Program-made: the position numbers and the translations under genes
Notes under the pieces: model-generated
Databases searched by the model: none
The model's input: the letters and a program-made list of their open reading frames with translations, nothing else
Told to the model about the DNA's origin: nothing
NCBI GenBank assembly: GCA_021772775.1
Contig: JAJFLH010000035.1
Span: 1 to 64,000 of the forward strand
DNA from: Mariprofundus sp.
Lineage (GTDB): Bacteria; Pseudomonadota; Zetaproteobacteria; Mariprofundales; Mariprofundaceae
Length of the DNA stretch: 64,000 nucleotides
Reading direction: 5' to 3'
In this document: in pieces, positions 11,596 through 61,215 of the stretch
Layout of the letters: the number at the start of each line of letters is the position of its first letter
Position numbering within the stretch: position 1 is the first letter of the stretch

Positions 11596-14500
11596 ATGAC
11601 GAAGCAACGTCGCGATGTGTTAGTCGAAGAGAATCAGCGTCTCAAGCTGGAGCTTGCTCGTCTGCGCAGTCAAAACACACCCAAAAGCTCTGTTAAGTTC
11701 AATTGTGAAACAGGTCGTTGTCCACTGGCTGTTACAACTCATGCTGTGTTATGGAAAATGGATAGTAATACCAGAAAGTTTACCTTCATCAGCCCCCATA
11801 TAGAGCAGTGGTTAGGCTATCCAGCCGATTCATGGATCGGCCTTGAGACCTGTAATGAACGCCTGCATCCCGATGACCGGCATATCATTGATAAGATCCA
11901 TAATGAAGCAATAGAGCATGGTAGCGAGGCAACGGTAGATTACCGTCTGATCAGAGCCGGTGGAGAGATAGTCTGGGTCAGAGATGTCATTTCGATCGAT
12001 AGATGCAATCCTTCTACACCATCATTGATCGGCTTTATGATCGACATCAGCGATCACAATAAAATAGAAAAGGCGCTTAAAGAGTCTGAGGAGAAGTATC
12101 GCTCCCTCATGCAGAGTGCCGGAGATGCCATCTTCGTTGCAGATGCAGAGACAGGTATCCTCGTTGATGCCAATCGGCAGGCCAGTGAATTGATTGGCTG
12201 GAACCAGAACGAGTTAATCGGCATGCATCATACTCGGCTTCATCCAACAGCTGAGAGAGAGTATTATAACCGTCAATTTATCAGTCAAATTGGCGGCAGA
12301 AGCAGCGGTATAAGTCTAAGCTCTGAAGTTCAACATAGGAATGGGAGCCTTATCCCGGTTGAGATAAATGCAGCTAGTTTTATGGCTGGTGACAGGAGAC
12401 TGGTGCAAGGTATTTTCAGGAATATTAGCGAACGCAAACAGACTGAAATCGCACTGCAAAAATCGGAAGAGAATTTGCGAACCATTTTCGACAATATACA
12501 AGACACCTTTTACCGCAGTGATCTAAGCGGAAAAATCATTGATCTGTCCCCTTCCGTCGCAGAACTCATCTCCATACAAGCCAAAGATCTAATCGGCAAG
12601 CAACTGGCGGACTACTATGTTGATCCGCATGGTCGTGAAAAATTTCTTTCAGCTCTTGTAGATGCGGGCGGAGAAGTGCGCAATTATGAGGCATTGATTC
12701 GTAAAGGTGATGGCCAACAGATTTGGGTTGCTACGAATGCGCAGTACTATCGCGATGAGATGGGTGAGATAGCAGGTATTGAAGGCACTATCCGTGATAT
12801 CACAGAGCGCAAACTGAGTGAGGAGAAAAACCTCACCCAAATTCGTACGCTGGAGAGCCTGCAAAAAATAGCCGATGCCATTAATAGTCCACTACCATCC
12901 AATAAAGTCATGGATGATGTCATTGCAATTATTCTTGAAATTTTCACTGCCGACCGTGCATGGCTGCTCTACCCCTGTGATCCAGAAGCCGATTCTTGGG
13001 AAGTACCCGTGGAAGCAACGCTGCCACAATACCCGGGAGCACTGGCCTTAAAACAAAAGATTTCGCTTTCTGCCGAAGTAACACAGGTATTCAGAGAGGT
13101 TTTGGCGTCAGATCAACCTGTTGTCTGCTGCCCTATGCTAACAGGTGATCCAAATACCGATCCGTTTGCAGTTAAATCGCAAATCATTATGGCCATCCAT
13201 CCAAAACATGGCAAAGCCTGGGCACTGGGCCTGCATCAGTGTTCATATGAACGCCAATGGAGTGATGAAGATCAACAGCTGTTTGCCCAGGTTGGCAAGA
13301 GAATGACCGTCCTGCTGGGTTCCACACATCAGGACAACAGACTGCGCAAACTCTCCTCTGCCGTACAGCAGGCTGGCGAATCGGTACTTATTACGGATCG
13401 GACAGGCAGCATCGAATATATCAATCCGGCCTTCACAGCCATCACTGGCTACTCTGCTGAGGAGGTCATAGGCAAGAGCCCTTCCATCCTTAAAAGTGAT
13501 GCTCAGGATCCAGCTTATTACAAAGAGCTCTGGGAAACGGTTACACGTGGTGATGTATGGCATGGTACACTGATCGACCGAAAAAAAGACGGTAGCTTCT
13601 ATCCCGCCCTCATGACAGTCGCTCCTGTTCACGATGATCATGACAATATCACCCATTTTGTCGCGACTCAGCAGGATATGACGGAATACAAACGGCTTGA
13701 AGAACAGTTCTTTGAAGCACAGAAGTTGCAGGCCATCGGAACACTGGCAGGCGGTATTGCGCATGATTTCAACAATATGCTAGCTGCTTTACAGGGCAAT
13801 CTGTTTCTGGTGCGACAACACAGCAAGCTCAGCCAAAAAACAGAGTCCCGACTAAACAGTGTTGATATGATTATCGTTCGTGCTGCCAGCATGGTGAGAC
13901 AGCTTTTAACCTATGCGCGCAAAGATCGGGTCACGATGACCCCCTTCTCTCTCAACTCATTTATGAAAGAGGGGTTCAAAATGCTAAAAACTGCCATCCC
14001 TGAAAATATCGAGCACGTTTGCGATCTCTGTCAGGATGAGTTGATTATCCATGGTGATGCTATGCAGCTGCAACAGGCGCTGATGAATCTACTGATCAAT
14101 GCCCGCGATGCTGTTGAAGGTTCACGACAGCCGAAAATCAACTGTTCACTTGCCCCCTACTCCGCCAGCATTGATTTTCTCAACAGACATCCCGAACTGA
14201 TTAAAACCAACTTTGCCCGTCTAACAGTATCCGACAATGGCAGCGGTATTAACCATGACAAACTGAATAAGATTTTCGAACCCTTTTTCACCACCAAGGA
14301 GGTCGGCAAGGGGACCGGACTTGGACTAGCTATGGTTTACGGCTCGATTATAACCCATGGCGGCGTTATTGAGGTGGAGAGTGAAGCGGGAAAGGGTTCG
14401 GCATTTCATATCTACCTGCCACTGGAAGAACAGTCTGAACCAGAACAAACGAAAACTAAACCGGCCATATCACAGGGAGAGTCGGAAACTATTCTACTGG

Positions 14501-47173: not shown

Positions 47174-50100
47174 TCATACAATCAACATTCCATTTACACA
47201 TGCCATCGGTAACGGATGTGCGGGACGGCCACGATCAATAATATAGGTTTCAGCTTGTTCGGCCGGATCAAATGCAGTTGAGCGTTTCTCTGTGCCTACA
47301 CGGATTTCATCACTGCTGCTCACTGGTGCTGCGTCACGTAAGCCCTTCACACCTTTCTTCATGGCTACAGCTTTTACCCCTTTGCCTTTTCCTAGCAGTG
47401 GGAACTCATCCTTTTTCACGATTGCCAGACAACCATCTTTAGTAATGAAAGCGATTGCATCATGGGTTTTATCCACTTCACGAATAGAGAAAAGCTTTGA
47501 GCCAGCAGGCAAATTGATAAACGCCTTACCTTTCTTGTTGGCCGTTAACATACCCTCGCCTTTCGCCCTGAAGGCATAAGCAAGGGTTGTGATAATAATA
47601 TACTCGGAATCAGGGTTGATCATAAATAGTCGTGTTGGTGCTTCATTGATGCTGAATACAAAGTTTTTGGAGATCGGCTCACCATTACCGCGACCACTGG
47701 GTAGGTCAGCAGCAAGCATATTAAAGGCGCGGCCTGTACGTCCAATAAACACAAGTCGATTGGTTGTATGACCAGCAGCATGGTCGAGGATTTTATCCCC
47801 CTCTCTGAACTTCACGCTCTCCACATCAATATGCAGACCGCGCATCCCCTTCAACCAACCGGCTTTTGATAGTACAGCCGTTACCGGCTCACGTGCCACC
47901 AGCATCTCCTTACTCATGATGCGCGCTCTGGGTGCATCAGGATGCACTTCTGTCCTACGTTCATCACCAAAGGCTCTGCGTGTCTCCATCAGCTCTTTTC
48001 TGATCTTTTTCCAACGGTGGGCGTAATCGTCAATGGTCTGTTTCAATTCAACCGCTTCTGCACTCAGAAGATCATGTTCACCCTGCAGTTTCATCTCTTC
48101 GAGTTTACGCAGCTGAGAGAGACGGATGGCCAGAATCGCCACCACCTGCAGATCAGAGAGTGAGTATTTCTCCATGATGATCGGCTTGGGCTCATCGTTA
48201 TCGAGAATGATATCGACAATGTCTCTGATATTCGGGTAGGCCAACAGCAAACCATCAAGGATATGCAGACGCTTCTCAATTTCAGCCAGTCGAACGGTTG
48301 AGCGGGCAGTCACAAGCCGTTCACGATTATTCAGGAATGAGCGAATCATCTGATCAAGCGTAAACAGCCTTGGCAGCCTGTAACGGTCACCATTGGGTGC
48401 AAGCAGCCAATCTTCAAGCGCATAGGTGGCGTATTCGATGGTCAGTTGCAGATTGGTCACAGAGAAGAGATGCAGCATAATGTCATTTGCATCTAAACCC
48501 TTCGATTTCGGATAAAGAATAATTCGAATATCTATGCCTTCGGATTCATCACGAATATCCTCAAGCATGGGTAGCCGCTTTCTCTCTGGCAGGGTCGGAT
48601 CAGAGATACACTGGCCCATCGAAATCAGCAGTGGCGATTTCTCGATGCCGTAAGGGATTTCGGTAATAACAATTTGCCATGCGCCCCGCTCCAGCTTCTC
48701 CACATGCCATTTGCAGCGTAGCAACATTTTACCGCGCCCTGTCGCGTACATCTTCTCAATATCTTCATGTCTGTTGGCAATAATACCGCCACCTGGAAAA
48801 TCAGGCGCAGATATATGTTTGCGCACCGTTGTGAAATCCAGTGGTGATTCCGATGCACCTGTCCTGATGCGTTTGTCAGCCAGAGCGATGCAGGCCCCCA
48901 TCAGCTCGGTAAGATTATGCGGGGGAATTTCTGATTTAAAGCCAACCCCCGGATTACCGGTCGTGCCGTTCATCAAAACACTGGGGAACGGTGCCGGTAA
49001 CAATAGCGGTTCAATGTCTTCATCATCATAGTTCGGTTGGTATTCTGAGATGCCTTCTTTAAGATCACTGGAGAGCATCGCTTCGGCAATCGCTGTTAAC
49101 TTGGCTTCGGTGTAACGCATGGCAGCAGCACTATCACCATCAATCGAGCCCCAGTTCCCCTGCGGATACACATAGGGGTAGCGCATCTTCCAGGGCTGTG
49201 ACATTCTCACCATGGCATCGTAAACACTGGAGTCGCCATGTGGGTGATATTTACCGATGACATCACCGACCACACGAGCGGCCTTTTTGGTCGGGCCATC
49301 AGAACGCAGTTTAAGCATCTCCATCGCATACAAGATGCGCCTATGCACAGGCTTCAATCCATCCCGTACATCGGGAATCGCACGACCCCCCACTACTTGC
49401 AGACCATAACCACGATACATCTCGCGAAACACAGACTCAAATGGCGCGATAGTGTTATTGCCAGAATCGTACTTCTGGAAGAGATCAAGCTCTTTCACAT
49501 CATCAGTAACATCACAAGGATCATTGGCTGGTTCAAGATAAGCGGCTTCTTCAATCTCTACGCCCATTAACAGATTTTTGCGCTGATCTGCATCACTGCC
49601 CATGAGTTTTGTCATTAGGGCATCCATGCGCGGATCACTTTGCGGCAGCACCTTCACCAACACCCTGTTTTCAGCATCCATACAGGTTTCAGCAAGTTCC
49701 GGAGGATCCATTTCACCCAAACCTTTGTAGCGGGTATAGGTGATCTTTTTCTTTTCAGCCAAGGCCATCGCCTTCAAACCATCGAGCTCATCCTGATCCT
49801 GAGCGTAATGCTTCTGTTTGCCGATGGTGGCGCCATAAAGCGGTGGCTGAACAATGTAGACGCAACCGGCATCAACAAGCGGTTTCATTAAGCGATAAAA
49901 GAATGTGCCGAGCAGGTTCTGGATATGTAGACCATCGACATCGGCATCGGTCATGATAATCACTTTTCCATATCTGCGGTTAGCAGGATCGCAGTTTTCA
50001 CCAACACCTGAACCCACAGCAGTCACCAGATCCGCCACTGCCTCACTGCCAATGGCATCTTCCGGATCAATACCCTCACAGTTTAGAATTTTACCTTTGA

Positions 50101-51442
50101 TCGGGATAACAGCCTGTGTATCCCGATTGCACGCCTGCTTGGCTGAACCACCGGCCGAATCACCCTCCACAATGTAAATTTCAGTACCTTCAATACCATT
50201 GAAGCGACAATCCTGCAGTTTGCCCGGCAGTGGCGTGCGACCGGTATAAGTTTTACGTTCAACCTTCTTCTTTTTGCCACTCTCTAATGCAGCACGAGCT
50301 GAAGCGCGATCAATCACCAGCTTCACCCATGCATCGGAGAGTTCCACATCACGGTGCAATAGGAGGGAAGCGGCATCATGAATCACGCCGCCTACAAACT
50401 TGGTGGCTTCCCTTGAACCGAGTTTCTGTTTGGTCTGCCCTTCAAAGGAGATATCCTTAATGTAGACCGATAGCCCCATCTGGGAGTTGCCCATAATATC
50501 TGAAGGTGCGATGCGCGTATTTTTGGCCAAGGTTTTCTTCAGTTCAGGGCGTAGTTCCAGATACTCACGCACAGCTTTCAGCATGCCGTCGGCAAAACCC
50601 TTTTCATGGGTACCGCCCCTTGGTGTAGGCACAGTGTTCGCATAGGAGCGAACAAAAGTATCAACAGGTTCCTCGAATGAAGCAAAGAACCAGTGCACCT
50701 TTTCAATATCGCCAAGCGCTCCCGAGAATTCAAATAGAGGTGATTCAGCCATATTGGCTTCCATATATTCAGCCAATCCACGTTTGAAACAAAACTTTTC
50801 AGTCTCTAAGCCTGGAGCTTTAAATGTTACTTCAAGTCCGGGGATTAAGATGGCTTTATCCATAGCCTGCTGGCGAACCTGTTGAATGCGGAATTTAGAC
50901 TGTTTATAAACATCAGGGTCTGGAGAAAACCGGATCGATGTACCGCGAGTCCGAGGGCCGCAGTCACCAACCCTTTTCAGCTTTTCAACTACACGTCCTT
51001 TTTCAAGGCGCATGAACCATTCACCACCATCGCGCTTGACCGTTGCTTCCAGAAAAGTTGAGAGCGCATTGGTTACAGTAATACCAACACCGTGAAGACC
51101 ACCTGACACTTGATAGCTGTCATGATCAAATTTGCCGCCGGCTTTATCCTGAGTCAGTACCATTTCGACACCGCTCATACCGGATGCTTCATCGATCTCT
51201 ACAGGGATACCGCGGCCATTGTCGGAGATACAAATAACACTATCGGATTCAACTTCAACAATGATTTTGGAGCAGAAGCCGCCAATCGCTTCATCACCAC
51301 AGTTATCGAGCACTTCCTGCGCGATATGGTGGCAACCAATCTCTGAGCCAATATCAGTATACATCCGTGGCCGTAGCCGGATATGTTCAATACCGTCCAG
51401 ATTCTTTAGCGATTTAATTCCGTATTCTGACCCTGACCCCAT
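47174..51442 (-). CDS. parE-parC: Single-chain DNA topoisomerase IV (ParE-ParC fusion)
   Basis: 1422 residues in one uninterrupted frame. ParE half (about 1-645): GHKL ATPase with EVLDNCGDEAIG, SDNGRGIPV and GGLHGVGITV; transducer with the conserved QTK; TOPRIM with EIYIVEGDSAGGSAKQA and MTDADVDGLHIQNLL. Then a short linker of some 25 residues, and the ParC half (from about 668): VVGGRAIPDVRDGLKPVHRR, KYHPHGDSSVYDAMVRMSQP, and the catalytic tyrosine in AAMRYTEAKLT (about Y777). The C-terminal 250 residues form a reduced ParC-type propeller with no GyrA box. It should decatenate chromosomes as a homodimer, like eukaryotic topoisomerase II. Start ATG 51442 has AGGGAG 5 nt upstream; GTG 51448 is in frame. 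Normally two genes. Confidence 0.93.
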   Translation of the reverse strand: MGSGSEYGIKSLKNLDGIEHIRLRPRMYTDIGSEIGCHHIAQEVLDNCGDEAIGGFCSKIIVEVESDSVICISDNGRGIPVEIDEASGMSGVEMVLTQDKAGGKFDHDSYQVSGGLHGVGITVTNALSTFLEATVKRDGGEWFMRLEKGRVVEKLKRVGDCGPRTRGTSIRFSPDPDVYKQSKFRIQQVRQQAMDKAILIPGLEVTFKAPGLETEKFCFKRGLAEYMEANMAESPLFEFSGALGDIEKVHWFFASFEEPVDTFVRSYANTVPTPRGGTHEKGFADGMLKAVREYLELRPELKKTLAKNTRIAPSDIMGNSQMGLSVYIKDISFEGQTKQKLGSREATKFVGGVIHDAASLLLHRDVELSDAWVKLVIDRASARAALESGKKKKVERKTYTGRTPLPGKLQDCRFNGIEGTEIYIVEGDSAGGSAKQACNRDTQAVIPIKGKILNCEGIDPEDAIGSEAVADLVTAVGSGVGENCDPANRRYGKVIIMTDADVDGLHIQNLLGTFFYRLMKPLVDAGCVYIVQPPLYGATIGKQKHYAQDQDELDGLKAMALAEKKKITYTRYKGLGEMDPPELAETCMDAENRVLVKVLPQSDPRMDALMTKLMGSDADQRKNLLMGVEIEEAAYLEPANDPCDVTDDVKELDLFQKYDSGNNTIAPFESVFREMYRGYGLQVVGGRAIPDVRDGLKPVHRRILYAMEMLKLRSDGPTKKAARVVGDVIGKYHPHGDSSVYDAMVRMSQPWKMRYPYVYPQGNWGSIDGDSAAAMRYTEAKLTAIAEAMLSSDLKEGISEYQPNYDDEDIEPLLLPAPFPSVLMNGTTGNPGVGFKSEIPPHNLTELMGACIALADKRIRTGASESPLDFTTVRKHISAPDFPGGGIIANRHEDIEKMYATGRGKMLLRCKWHVEKLERGAWQIVITEIPYGIEKSPLLISMGQCISDPTLPERKRLPMLEDIRDESEGIDIRIILYPKSKGLDANDIMLHLFSVTNLQLTIEYATYALEDWLLAPNGDRYRLPRLFTLDQMIRSFLNNRERLVTARSTVRLAEIEKRLHILDGLLLAYPNIRDIVDIILDNDEPKPIIMEKYSLSDLQVVAILAIRLSQLRKLEEMKLQGEHDLLSAEAVELKQTIDDYAHRWKKIRKELMETRRAFGDERRTEVHPDAPRARIMSKEMLVAREPVTAVLSKAGWLKGMRGLHIDVESVKFREGDKILDHAAGHTTNRLVFIGRTGRAFNMLAADLPSGRGNGEPISKNFVFSINEAPTRLFMINPDSEYIIITTLAYAFRAKGEGMLTANKKGKAFINLPAGSKLFSIREVDKTHDAIAFITKDGCLAIVKKDEFPLLGKGKGVKAVAMKKGVKGLRDAAPVSSSDEIRVGTEKRSTAFDPAEQAETYIIDRGRPAHPLPMACVNGMLIV

Positions 51443-51915
51443 GAGCACTCCCTACCCTGATCTGACCGAACTACCGTGTTGCGTTGATACTCAAACTACA
51501 ATCCCATACCTTTTCATTCTATTGCTATCGCACATCATAATCGACTTGTGCCACCCGGCTCAAACATAATGCCAGCCCCACCATTTAGGGAGAACCAGCA
51601 CAGCTGTTTTCTGTATCAGCCCAGCTTGATTGGTTTTATGCAAAAATCCAGCACTCCTGCGACTCTCCTTAAAATAGTGGCTTATTGTACAGCACTCAAA
51701 CAGCATTTCATCATCGCGTTTTTGATCTGTTCCTATGATGGAATGAAGCAGACGGAATCGACACTGTGGGCTCAGACCATAACTCAAACTCACTGCAATA
51801 TAACAGCATCACCATGAATAGAACCTCTCGCTTCAGTTACACTAGCGAACAACTCTCTGCCCTGCTTGCATCTTGCTCATACTCTGACAATCGTTAAAAA
51901 ATAGCGCCCAGCAGC
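51443..51915. other. Intergenic region with no gene seen
   Basis: About 470 bases. Frames of up to 89 codons exist on both strands but have Cys/His/Pro-rich, low-quality translations and no RBS. It must hold the promoter of the topoisomerase gene. Confidence 0.4.
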
Positions 51916-55502: not shown

Positions 55503-56930
55503 CTACATGAAAAACCGATAGTCATATATCTCGTTAACTATATCTGGGGCCTGCTTAACAACATCAGCGAATTTTTGAGAATATCCCAAAGTCACAGGCA
55601 TGGTTTTGTACAGAGTATTATTGTTCCAATCGACTTTTGTAAGAGAAAGAACACTCGAACAGCTATCATGCCATCCCCCATCCCCAGAAAATCTACGCAA
55701 CAAGATTGGGTCGGGCAGAGGTTTTAAAGCCGCTTCTTTAAAAACAGACTGCCATGACTTTTGGACATTTACCCCACTGACACTACCTTGTGTCCATAAG
55801 AGGCATTCATTTTCACTAATGGGTTGATAGAAGCCCCTGCCAACAGGATATCCAGCTGGCGCGGCTTTTTGCCCTTGATTCTTAGGAGAATCAATTTTCA
55901 ACCCATACCAACTTGTTCGGCGAACAACCTGAATAAGCTCAATCTCAGTTTCCCCTCCAAATGCATCATATGCACCTTGTATTTCCTCTTCTGTAAAATG
56001 GGATGTTTTGTGAATAAATATCTTCCGAGGAATTCGACCACCATGACTATTCTGATATAGATGAAGGCTTCTGGACAAAACAGACTGCATTTCCTGATAG
56101 CTTAGATACGGATTTCCTTTTCTATCAGTCGTGAATTCACGCGTATCGTATGCAACAAATTGAAACCCTGTTCCATCCGGGTCAAAAACCTGACTGCAAC
56201 ATGTGGTGTAGTCGTTATTACCTTCATGTTTTTTGATAGCGTAACTCAGTCCAATATAAGCCTCATCCTTGTCTAATTCTGCCAGTTTCCAGGGAACCCC
56301 TCCTGCTTTTGCATACAGTGCAACACTCATTCCCCACATTACATTAGCACGACAGGATCGTGTAAAAGCAATGTCATTCACTATTTGAACAGCCACGTTG
56401 GCAGGTGCAAGTTTAGCCTTTATTCGATTATGCAGGTTAAAATCTTCGTATTCAAAAACTTCTTGCCATTCCTTAGGAAGATACATCAACAAAACATCGA
56501 AAGAGTTTTTTTTTCTCATTAGTTGAGCTATTGATTGCAATATACCTTGTACAAGCCCTTCTCCATCTTTTCGCGCCACCAATGCCAAACAATTATCTGG
56601 TGCCGTGCACCTAAGTCCCTCTGAAGGTGCAATCAGAGGGATTCGAAAAACATTTTGAAACCCTGCATATTGAATATAGTAATTGAGCGCTTCTATAGGT
56701 GTTGCATTCCCATTCAATTCCGCCACAAGTTTATCAAGTCTTCCCATTTTCTCGGCAGGAGAAAAATAAGCAAGCCTCACCTGATTCAATATCCCTAGGT
56801 CAGTACTGTAAGGCCCATGATTAGTTAACCCTCTTAGAGGATGAACATCTGTGTTTCGCCCAGAAAACAACAATAATGGTTCAGGCAATATCGAATAGCC
56901 GGGAAGCACATTTGCTTTCTCATTCATCAT
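55503..56930 (-). CDS. Short prokaryotic Argonaute (MID-PIWI only)
   Basis: 475 residues, the normal length of a short pAgo lacking N and PAZ domains. The MID domain occupies roughly the first half. The PIWI half shows [20 protein letters not shown] (the H.Y/K...-type strand), [29 protein letters not shown] and the end [11 protein letters not shown]. The DEDX catalytic tetrad of slicing Argonautes is not evident, as expected: short pAgos use guide RNA to recognise target DNA but do not cut it. It partners the SIR2-APAZ gene, with which it overlaps by ATGA; GGAGG precedes the start. ATG 56927 is an alternative start. Function in the known system: sensing of invading plasmid or phage DNA. Confidence 0.9.
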
Positions 56931-58735: not shown

Positions 58736-59812
58736 TCATGATATTGGGAACCTATCAAGAAAGCCTTCAAATCCATCCGTATGCCAATTAATTCGTTTAC
58801 CAAACAGTGTCACATAACGTCTACCCACCGGATGCTTTTCAGCTAATCGATGGTCTGAATCAAACTCCACAATATCAATGGAATTATCCCCCAAATGAGA
58901 TAGCCCGCGTTTTAATAGGTAGAGCACATCTAGATCATCATCTGGAAGACTGTAACCAATAATGATTACCCTTTTCGCCTTCCTAAGTACTTGATCAGCC
59001 TCATACCATATTCGGCTAATATGTGGATTTCGATAGTCTTTGAAATAAGTGGGCGAAATCATCACCGGCTTAACTTCCGAATGGCAGGATATACATTTGC
59101 GTCCTTGGCAAGTAAGCCGCTGCTCCAAAGTCTCATGTTTTGCCTTTTCCTCTGAATATAATTGTTCGAGGACTTTGGTGAATCCGACTCCCGAATTTGA
59201 TATTCCGACATCCAATCGATTGCAACTCGGGCAATAGAGCCAATTCAGAGAACCATGGAGCTTCAACAACTTACTGTCGCCCATTTTTTTCCGATAGAGG
59301 TCGCTGGCCACATCACAAAGATAATCGGGGAATATGCCCTCATCGTTGCCGGATGCTTCGTTAATTCGAGTTAACGCGTTATCTGCAATGATGTCGTAAT
59401 TTAGAGAAATCGTAACGGGAAGAGTTCCCGCCTTCTTTTTCAGTTTATCATATAATGTATGGTAGTAGTTCTTCTGGAGTTTCTTCAAATCATGTTCCAA
59501 GACAGCAAAGATCACATAATCAAGCGCCCGACGAGCATCAATTAACCTGCCCTGATCCCACTTAGGGCCCAAGGCATGACCTCGATCAATTGCAGTGTCC
59601 AGGAAACTGATCAACAACGGTAAGGGTGGAAGTTCACCAGACTGAGCAGCATAAAAGTTATCACTCAGAAATTCCTCCAGCGTCGGCAGGAATTGTTCAC
59701 GATCAATCTCATACGCTGTATTGAATGCCCGCGTCAAAATCTCATTAGTGAGAGGCCCACCACATGCTTTAGTTGCCCCTGCACCAAAAATAACTACTGT
59801 ATTGCTATCCAT
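58736..59812 (-). CDS. Second SIR2-family protein with embedded Zn ribbon
   Basis: 358 residues. NAD-binding loop GAGATKACGGP (10-20), Asn in SLNYDIIADNA (N138) and His in KLHGSLNW (H186) follow the SIR2-like (SIR2_2) pattern. CPSC (194-197) and CQGRKCISC (235-243) can build a four-Cys zinc site, and the late GYSLPDDDLDVLYLL closes the Rossmann fold. So an active NAD-consuming enzyme is possible. It starts 2 bases after the stop of the hydrolase and ends 27 bases before the SIR2-APAZ start, within one operon. Unlike the next gene it has no APAZ region. Role inferred: an additional NAD-dependent component of the same defence locus. Confidence 0.85.
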   Translation of the reverse strand: MDSNTVVIFGAGATKACGGPLTNEILTRAFNTAYEIDREQFLPTLEEFLSDNFYAAQSGELPPLPLLISFLDTAIDRGHALGPKWDQGRLIDARRALDYVIFAVLEHDLKKLQKNYYHTLYDKLKKKAGTLPVTISLNYDIIADNALTRINEASGNDEGIFPDYLCDVASDLYRKKMGDSKLLKLHGSLNWLYCPSCNRLDVGISNSGVGFTKVLEQLYSEEKAKHETLEQRLTCQGRKCISCHSEVKPVMISPTYFKDYRNPHISRIWYEADQVLRKAKRVIIIGYSLPDDDLDVLYLLKRGLSHLGDNSIDIVEFDSDHRLAEKHPVGRRYVTLFGKRINWHTDGFEGFLDRFPIS

Positions 59813-59814
59813 AT

Positions 59815-61215
59815 CTATGCTTCATCGCCAACTGGATTACCAGAAGGTTTTAATTTCTTGAAGTTATCTGGCCCATCGAAGCGGAAAACATTCTCATCGA
59901 CGAAGCGGTGCAGCACAATATCAATATAGGTGGTTCCATTGGGCTGGATTACTTTTTCCAGAGAAGTTCCATCGGACTGGAACTCAGCTTCATGGTAGTA
60001 GGAGAAACCTTTCTCCGGCCGGGCAACAACCCTGAAACCAATCTTCCCATCTTCAACATCCTTCATCTTGTCGGCATCAAGATAGTAAACGAGACGACCA
60101 CTCTTACTATTCATCTGGCGATCAACGAAGAAATCACGAGGCAGTCGTTCGGGTTTATATGCATTGCCTGCCAACAGGAAGAGATCGAAGTCGTTCTCCT
60201 TGATCTGTTCGCCCTGATCATCACACACATTGAACACCAGCATGCAGTAGCGGCCAATCGTCTTGTTATCCTCTTGCCTTACCATCTGCTGTTGCTGTTC
60301 AGTGAACTGCTTTAGCTCGTTGAAACGACTGTCGTAAGAGGCCTGATCCGATACTTTCAGACAATTGAGAATATCAACAACGATCTGATTATGCCCATCG
60401 GCAGGTGCACTTCGCATGATGCCCATATCATCACCTGAATGGCTGTAACCACTGTATACCCCGAGTGCAACAGGTCTGGAGCCTCGAAGGTCTCCATTCG
60501 ACTCAAGTAGGAACGATGCAGCCCGATTCGGAGTGGGAGCTGATATATTCTGCTTCAGGGAGACGTACTGATAATTCAAACTCGCTCCGGCAACGCGCAC
60601 CACACCATCAGAGCCATCCTCAACCAGATAACTATTGAGGAAATCATAGAAGGTACGGTCAATCCCCTGCCCGGTTAACACAAATGGGTAGAGGCCATGA
60701 GCCGTACAGTCGTAATCGAGATAGTTTTTGTTAAGCCCCCACTGACCATCACTGCCAAGACTCAACCAGTCGAGTACACGCTGGCCTGGCTCCACGCCAT
60801 TGAACCACGCTTTAATACGCCCAACACGCGCTTTACCGAGCTTGGCTAAGGCTGATCCATGATTGGCAGGGGCGAGCATCACCAGATGGCTCAATGGACA
60901 CATATCAAGTCCACCAGCACCGAAATAACGATCAATCCAGTGGCGCACGACCGGGCCACCGGTGGAGTGGGTAATACAGGAGAAGGGCTGAATGCCATTA
61001 CTGTTGCTTGGAAGCTCTTCCAGAGCCTTGTTCATGGCACGAGAGATATCATCCAGCGTCACCTCATCGTGGAAGCTAATATACCTACCTAGATAGATAT
61101 GCTGGATATCAAGTGCGATATCATATTCATCGCTTCGATTTGCCAGCGCCTGCGGAAGATCACCATAGGTATCGATATCGGTAACACTCCAGCCATGAAC
61201 AAATATTAATTGCAT
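59815..61215 (-). CDS. Alpha/beta-hydrolase (lipase/esterase-like), first gene of the Argonaute operon
   Basis: 466 residues. The fold opens MQLIFVHGWSVTDIDTYGDL (oxyanion HGW). The nucleophile elbow is SCITHSTGGPVVRHW (Ser 84; the first Gly of GxSxG is Thr). The acid and His cannot be fixed by eye; DGHNQIVVD is one candidate. It is similar to PGAP1-like/lipase-class proteins that cut acyl esters. The last third (about 320-466) is a separate beta-rich domain. GGGAGGAG precedes the ATG at 61215, so I chose it over the TTG at 61236, in which the RBS would be coding. Its stop is 2 bases before the next start. Substrate unknown; membrane lipid damage is one option. Confidence 0.82.
   Translation of the reverse strand: MQLIFVHGWSVTDIDTYGDLPQALANRSDEYDIALDIQHIYLGRYISFHDEVTLDDISRAMNKALEELPSNSNGIQPFSCITHSTGGPVVRHWIDRYFGAGGLDMCPLSHLVMLAPANHGSALAKLGKARVGRIKAWFNGVEPGQRVLDWLSLGSDGQWGLNKNYLDYDCTAHGLYPFVLTGQGIDRTFYDFLNSYLVEDGSDGVVRVAGASLNYQYVSLKQNISAPTPNRAASFLLESNGDLRGSRPVALGVYSGYSHSGDDMGIMRSAPADGHNQIVVDILNCLKVSDQASYDSRFNELKQFTEQQQQMVRQEDNKTIGRYCMLVFNVCDDQGEQIKENDFDLFLLAGNAYKPERLPRDFFVDRQMNSKSGRLVYYLDADKMKDVEDGKIGFRVVARPEKGFSYYHEAEFQSDGTSLEKVIQPNGTTYIDIVLHRFVDENVFRFDGPDNFKKLKPSGNPVGDEA

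Follow-up and report, generated by a model that had tools for sequence, protein, structure and literature searches.

In the 64,000 nt of Mariprofundus sp. DNA analysed here (hereafter the window), a gene for a full-length relative of the Legionella phospholipase PlaB lies directly ahead of a gene for a diverged SIR2 protein with a zinc ribbon (SIR2-Zn), and these are followed by the two genes of a SPARSA system. That plaB precedes NAD-linked immune genes both here and in two other bacteria suggests, without proving it, a membrane defence triggered by loss of NAD. The component families are known; what appears to be new is the combination, and the presence of a PlaB relative beside immune NAD enzymes, neither of which was found in the open-licence papers searched.

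Gene order and surroundings

The four genes lie in one run on the minus strand, in the order hydrolase, SIR2, SIR2-APAZ and short pAgo, with gaps of 2, 27 and -4 nt:

59815..61215, minus strand: plaB-like phospholipase gene, 466 aa, with a THSTGG elbow and S84/D203/H259
59813..59814, minus strand: junction of the plaB stop and the SIR2 start, 2 nt, with equal spacing in the metagenome-assembled genome (MAG) locus L025 described below
58736..59812, minus strand: SIR2 gene with Cys4 ribbon, 358 aa, with N138, H186 and C194/C197/C240/C243
56927..58708, minus strand: SPARSA SIR2-APAZ gene, 593 aa, with N150 and H194, starting 27 nt after the SIR2 gene
55503..56930, minus strand: SPARSA short pAgo gene, 475 aa, with a 4-nt overlap with SIR2-APAZ

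The 2-base spacing of the hydrolase and SIR2 genes reported in an earlier note on this DNA was confirmed (61215..59815 and 59812..58736). Both genes are intact and the hydrolase ATG has GGGAGGAG before it. As SIR2-APAZ and pAgo follow at +27 and -4 nt, the four genes probably form a single operon, in which plaB, SIR2 and the SPARSA genes would be co-transcribed. The SPARSA assignment comes from PADLOC (SIR2-APAZ, Aga_SIR2 Class I, 1.4e-189; short pAgo, pAgo_I, 1.3e-186), and the Asn-His dyad described for the SPARSA SIR2 (PMC10781750) is intact, as N150 and H194. The window differs from other SPARSA systems in the two extra genes that precede it; none of the other SPARSA-like homologues in the sample had them.

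On one side the run is flanked by dinB and an OmpA-like gene and on the other by an unknown ORF, TerB and PilZ. The earlier note had pictured the pair beside SPARSA in a defence island. SPARSA does adjoin it, at 27 nt, but PADLOC found no other defence system or gene among the directly adjacent genes scored; the idea of a multi-system island was therefore dropped and the locus is taken to be one cassette. Rfam and tRNA scans returned no feature.

Several other features were seen in and around the window. Two minus-strand genes 1-5 kb past its end (L019, 5345-9115) have weak to moderate PADLOC matches, one PDC-M43B/SduA-like and the other mad6/PD-T4-6-like with leucine-rich repeats by eye. A single ORF of 1424 aa at 47174-51448 (minus strand) carries GyrB/ParE-type domains (HATPase, GyrB, Toprim) together with GyrA/ParC-type ones, which makes it a one-chain type IIA topoisomerase. 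The same genome also holds a second dinB copy (G000:C25:157009-157670, L146), broken by internal stops and ~70% identical to that of the window, and a further SIR2_2 protein (G000:C36:110064-110471, L178; 540-aa frame).

The phospholipase and its SIR2 partner

PADLOC, NCBIfam and Pfam gave little help in identifying the hydrolase, the only match being to DUF7379, below its cut-off. A PDB sequence search, however, matched it over its full length to Legionella pneumophila PlaB (PDB 6zth/6zti; 1.4e-127, ~45% identity), with an alignment that spans residues 2-464 and includes the C-terminal beta domain. Its AlphaFold2 model (pLDDT 85.6) placed 6zti at the top of the Foldseek ranking, with a TM of 0.86 over the whole chain. 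The Ser elbow that had been noted earlier is present at S84, but in the form T82-H83-S84-T85-G86 (THSTGG) rather than GxSxG. None of S84, D203 and H259 varies among 48 homologues, down to 26% identity, and the three align with residues 100/218/266 of 6zth, which we take to be the PlaB triad S85/D203/H251 if 15 residues belong to a tag. Judged by its sequence and predicted fold, the hydrolase belongs to the PlaB family, lipolytic family XVIII: THSTG elbow, Ser-Asp-His triad and two-domain layout were all found. PlaB is the type of this family, in which the THSTG motif was described (PMC6622161). A lipid target, as the earlier note had supposed, is likely, since the hydrolase is a relative of a phospholipase. 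Where the window protein departs from Legionella PlaB is in heading an immune operon; no SIR2 or TIR gene was matched at the Legionella plaB loci examined.

Further clues to how the enzyme might be controlled come from Legionella. NAD(H) at the dimer-dimer interface reportedly stabilises an inactive PlaB tetramer, which agrees with the title of structure 6ZTI, PlaB 'in complex with thio-NAD', although this is the Legionella relative and not the window protein. By analogy, NAD(H) may gate the window PlaB. Tetrameric PlaB is inactive and dissociated PlaB active (PMC5377070).

The SIR2 residues and Cys4 ribbon claimed for the second gene product proved to be intact: all 13 homologues keep N138 and H186, and ribbon cysteines lie at 194/197/235/240/243. 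With GAG at 10-12, both hallmarks of defence SIR2 proteins, the Asn-His dyad and the GAG motif, are present. SIR2-Zn is a divergent, zinc-ribbon member of the SIR2 group. It scores 22 bits against PF13289, slightly below the cut-off, and 11-20 bits against deacylase models with cut-offs of 221 and above (CobB-type, 19.5 versus 221). The fold model (pLDDT 71.7, built from nine sequences) is nearest to the SIR2 of SIR2-HerA, followed by yeast and human sirtuins, SPARSA and DSR2; as these similarities reach a TM of only 0.5-0.6, we infer NADase activity from the Asn-His dyad and the company the gene keeps. SIR2-Zn shares the dyad and the SIR2 fold with SIR2-HerA/Nezha, DSR2 and ThsA, but it is without HerA or a long C-terminal sensor region, carries a Cys4 ribbon and is paired with a phospholipase.

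Proteins 25-35% identical to SIR2-Zn are encoded by cargo genes of prophage-like contigs, of Rhizobium plasmids and of one Vibrio plasmid, the plasmid-borne ones being single genes without plaB. Distant SIR2-Zn proteins occur on 14 viral contigs, with plaB absent from the eight inspected, and no close homologue was found on the viral contigs searched. A search for a close SIR2 in 78 genomes of the class, 397 of the phylum and a further 369 (class of G366) yielded no second copy.

Recurrence of the pair among plaB loci

A PlaB profile run against 84,980 species, each represented by one genome, gave 117 relatives, of which the best 80 were examined. One of these 80, in a Gammaproteobacteria MAG (L025, JAAEMR010000090.1), has the same pair: its SIR2 is 69% identical to that of the window over 355 residues, the 2-nt gap is the same and DNA homology continues across it. 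SPARSA is absent and a truncated third ORF lies behind. Because the same genes and the same junction recur without SPARSA in an unrelated MAG, plaB and SIR2 can make up an independent unit. In the window, by contrast with the two-gene unit proposed earlier, the run extends into SPARSA and comprises four genes. No Pfam family matched the third-ORF remnant (12483-12707). A Rhodococcus plasmid (L176, 4001-4504) has a 167-aa homologue of this third gene close to a TIR-like ORF, again without a Pfam or PADLOC assignment; this trace is too slight to build on.

A second variant is found in a Mariprofundaceae MAG (L014, the same locus as L022), where a ThsB-TIR gene lies 22 nt downstream of plaB and is followed by a TPR-S gene and a second ThsB-TIR gene (PF08937 at 2e-22 and 1e-14). 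The two ThsB-TIR genes recall Thoeris, but this locus has the TPR-S protein and PlaB, and ThsA was not found on the short, 5.2-kb contig. The other 78 of the best 80 loci (out of 117) have no SIR2 or TIR partner directly downstream of plaB, and most plaB genes among them are solitary or have ordinary neighbours; in L038 a TIR-like ORF lies 2 kb from plaB in the opposite direction. These figures do not support an enrichment of the family near defence genes at large, and neither does the known distribution of the pair itself, which is held by two genomes only (the TIR variant by one more), with no other PADLOC system in the flanking genes.

Phylogeny places the window plaB as sister to the TIR-linked L022/L014 gene (support 100/99) and the L025 plaB within the same nine-row clade (100/97). 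Taken together, tree and loci indicate that related plaB genes of one clade precede different NAD-linked immune genes. The 80 loci contain 1166 ORFs of 100 aa or more, and five of these resemble SIR2-Zn, the SPARSA SIR2, ThsB or TPR-S; they fall in three places, two of them directly behind plaB. SIR2- or TIR-linked loci number 2/8 in the clade of the window versus 0/72 elsewhere (Fisher p = 0.009, a guide and not proof, because the clade was chosen post hoc and the loci are related). Conservation of the plaB-SIR2 pair is thin but real.

The pair is not a general component of SPARSA. In a sample of 397 genomes from the phylum, 18 have a match to SIR2-APAZ, 14 one to plaB and seven one to SIR2-Zn, all but the window's own being distant. 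None of the 17 other genomes with SIR2-APAZ has a SIR2-Zn match (0/17) and one has plaB (1/17). Besides the genome of the window, G049 alone has two of the three, ~870 kb apart. That the other sampled SPARSA genomes are without the pair makes it separable from SPARSA.

The PlaB family has been described as restricted to Legionellaceae (PMC6622161). This is contradicted by the relatives found here in Mariprofundaceae, Desulfobacteraceae, Bacteroidota, Verrucomicrobiota, Acidobacteriota and a KSB1 MAG (L022-L101). Pseudomonas phage Y13 (OQ572414, 37676-38635) encodes a distant relative at 28% identity, the sole one among the phages searched; the viral contigs searched held none. On a Legionella lytica plasmid (L009, 12001-14651), the genes behind plaB encode an Xre antitoxin and a RES-domain (NAD+ phosphorylase) toxin, the latter another NAD-linked neighbour, though on a plasmid this could be due to chance.

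A possible NAD-gated phospholipase

The reading that we tentatively favour is that a rare lineage of plaB has become linked to immune genes that consume NAD, and that plaB-SIR2 is a small immune effector unit, joined here to SPARSA, whose phospholipase is released when NAD falls. While the cell is healthy, NAD(H) would maintain the phospholipase as an inactive higher-order assembly, as it reportedly does with Legionella PlaB. Once infection sets in, NAD would be consumed by SIR2-Zn, as an enzyme destroying or using NAD+, by SPARSA or by both; the freed phospholipase would then cut membrane phospholipids and end the infected cell, giving the operon an anti-phage function. More doubtful is the wider proposal that a PlaB-family phospholipase reads NAD loss, converting NAD+ consumption by unrelated SIR2, SPARSA or TIR enzymes into irreversible membrane damage, so that even phages that rebuild NAD would fail. 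Phospholipases serve as abortive-infection effectors in CBASS, in the form of CapV-type proteins, but CapV is patatin-type with a cyclic-nucleotide trigger, whereas the window has a PlaB fold and no cyclase. A parallel is offered by nuclease-protease gene pairs, which unrelated immune systems have likewise acquired (PMC12799240).

NAD-gated release is consistent with the intact triad and fold of a full-length PlaB relative, with the thio-NAD structure, with the retention of pair and gap in L025, with the TIR genes joined to the sister plaB at 22 nt and with the clustering of SIR2/TIR/TPR-S-like ORFs behind plaB. Against it stand the small number of cases, amid mostly ordinary plaB neighbours, and the ThsB TIRs of L014, such proteins being better known for signal production than for NAD depletion. 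NAD, moreover, is cytoplasmic. The listing of Legionella PlaB as an outer-membrane enzyme (PMC9132575) fits poorly with its sensing there. Base composition raises a further difficulty. The GC content of plaB in the window (0.487) is host-like, close to that of dinB (0.499), whereas SIR2 (0.434) and SPARSA (0.40-0.41) are lower, and L014 shows a similar step (plaB 0.452, downstream genes 0.36-0.37); these steps suggest separate arrival, and the immune genes may have joined a plaB that was already there. A somewhat less probable explanation than NAD gating builds on this: plaB would be a resident membrane-lipid enzyme and its downstream side a hot-spot, where functionally unrelated defence genes gather and use its promoter. 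The mostly solitary or ordinary settings of plaB and the different partners of sister plaB genes agree with such a hot-spot. The recurrence of the same SIR2 and the same 2-nt junction in the distant L025, where plaB (0.388) and SIR2 (0.378) are alike in GC, argues against it, as a chance hot-spot would not retain the same partner.

The 2-nt spacing, with probable translational coupling, and the pair's occurrence on its own in L025 could also point to a guarded toxin, in which SIR2-Zn binds the phospholipase, or ADP-ribosylates or deacylates it, and so holds it off until a phage triggers release, NAD level not being the signal. We consider this unlikely, as the SIR2-Zn relatives found in other settings stand alone, with no plaB beside them, and most plaB genes, evidently tolerated, are without SIR2. 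Very improbable is a metabolic pair, a sirtuin deacylase tuning a lipid-turnover enzyme with no role in defence. SIR2-Zn does retain a zinc ribbon, as deacylases do, and plaB is chromosomal in many bacteria, but the deacylase models score far below their cut-offs, several defence NADases are among the nearest folds of SIR2-Zn, its relatives are phage and plasmid cargo, and plaB-SIR2 is fused into a SPARSA operon. NAD-gated release is preferred to all three, to the hot-spot only slightly.

Bacterial immune responses commonly end in NAD+ depletion, but how the cell is then stopped or killed is not settled. An NAD-binding phospholipase family placed before NAD-using immune genes in separate lineages offers a connection from NAD loss to membrane rupture that can be tested directly. 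To the PlaB family, until now investigated for its part in Legionella virulence, it adds a setting outside virulence and a known range well beyond Legionellaceae.
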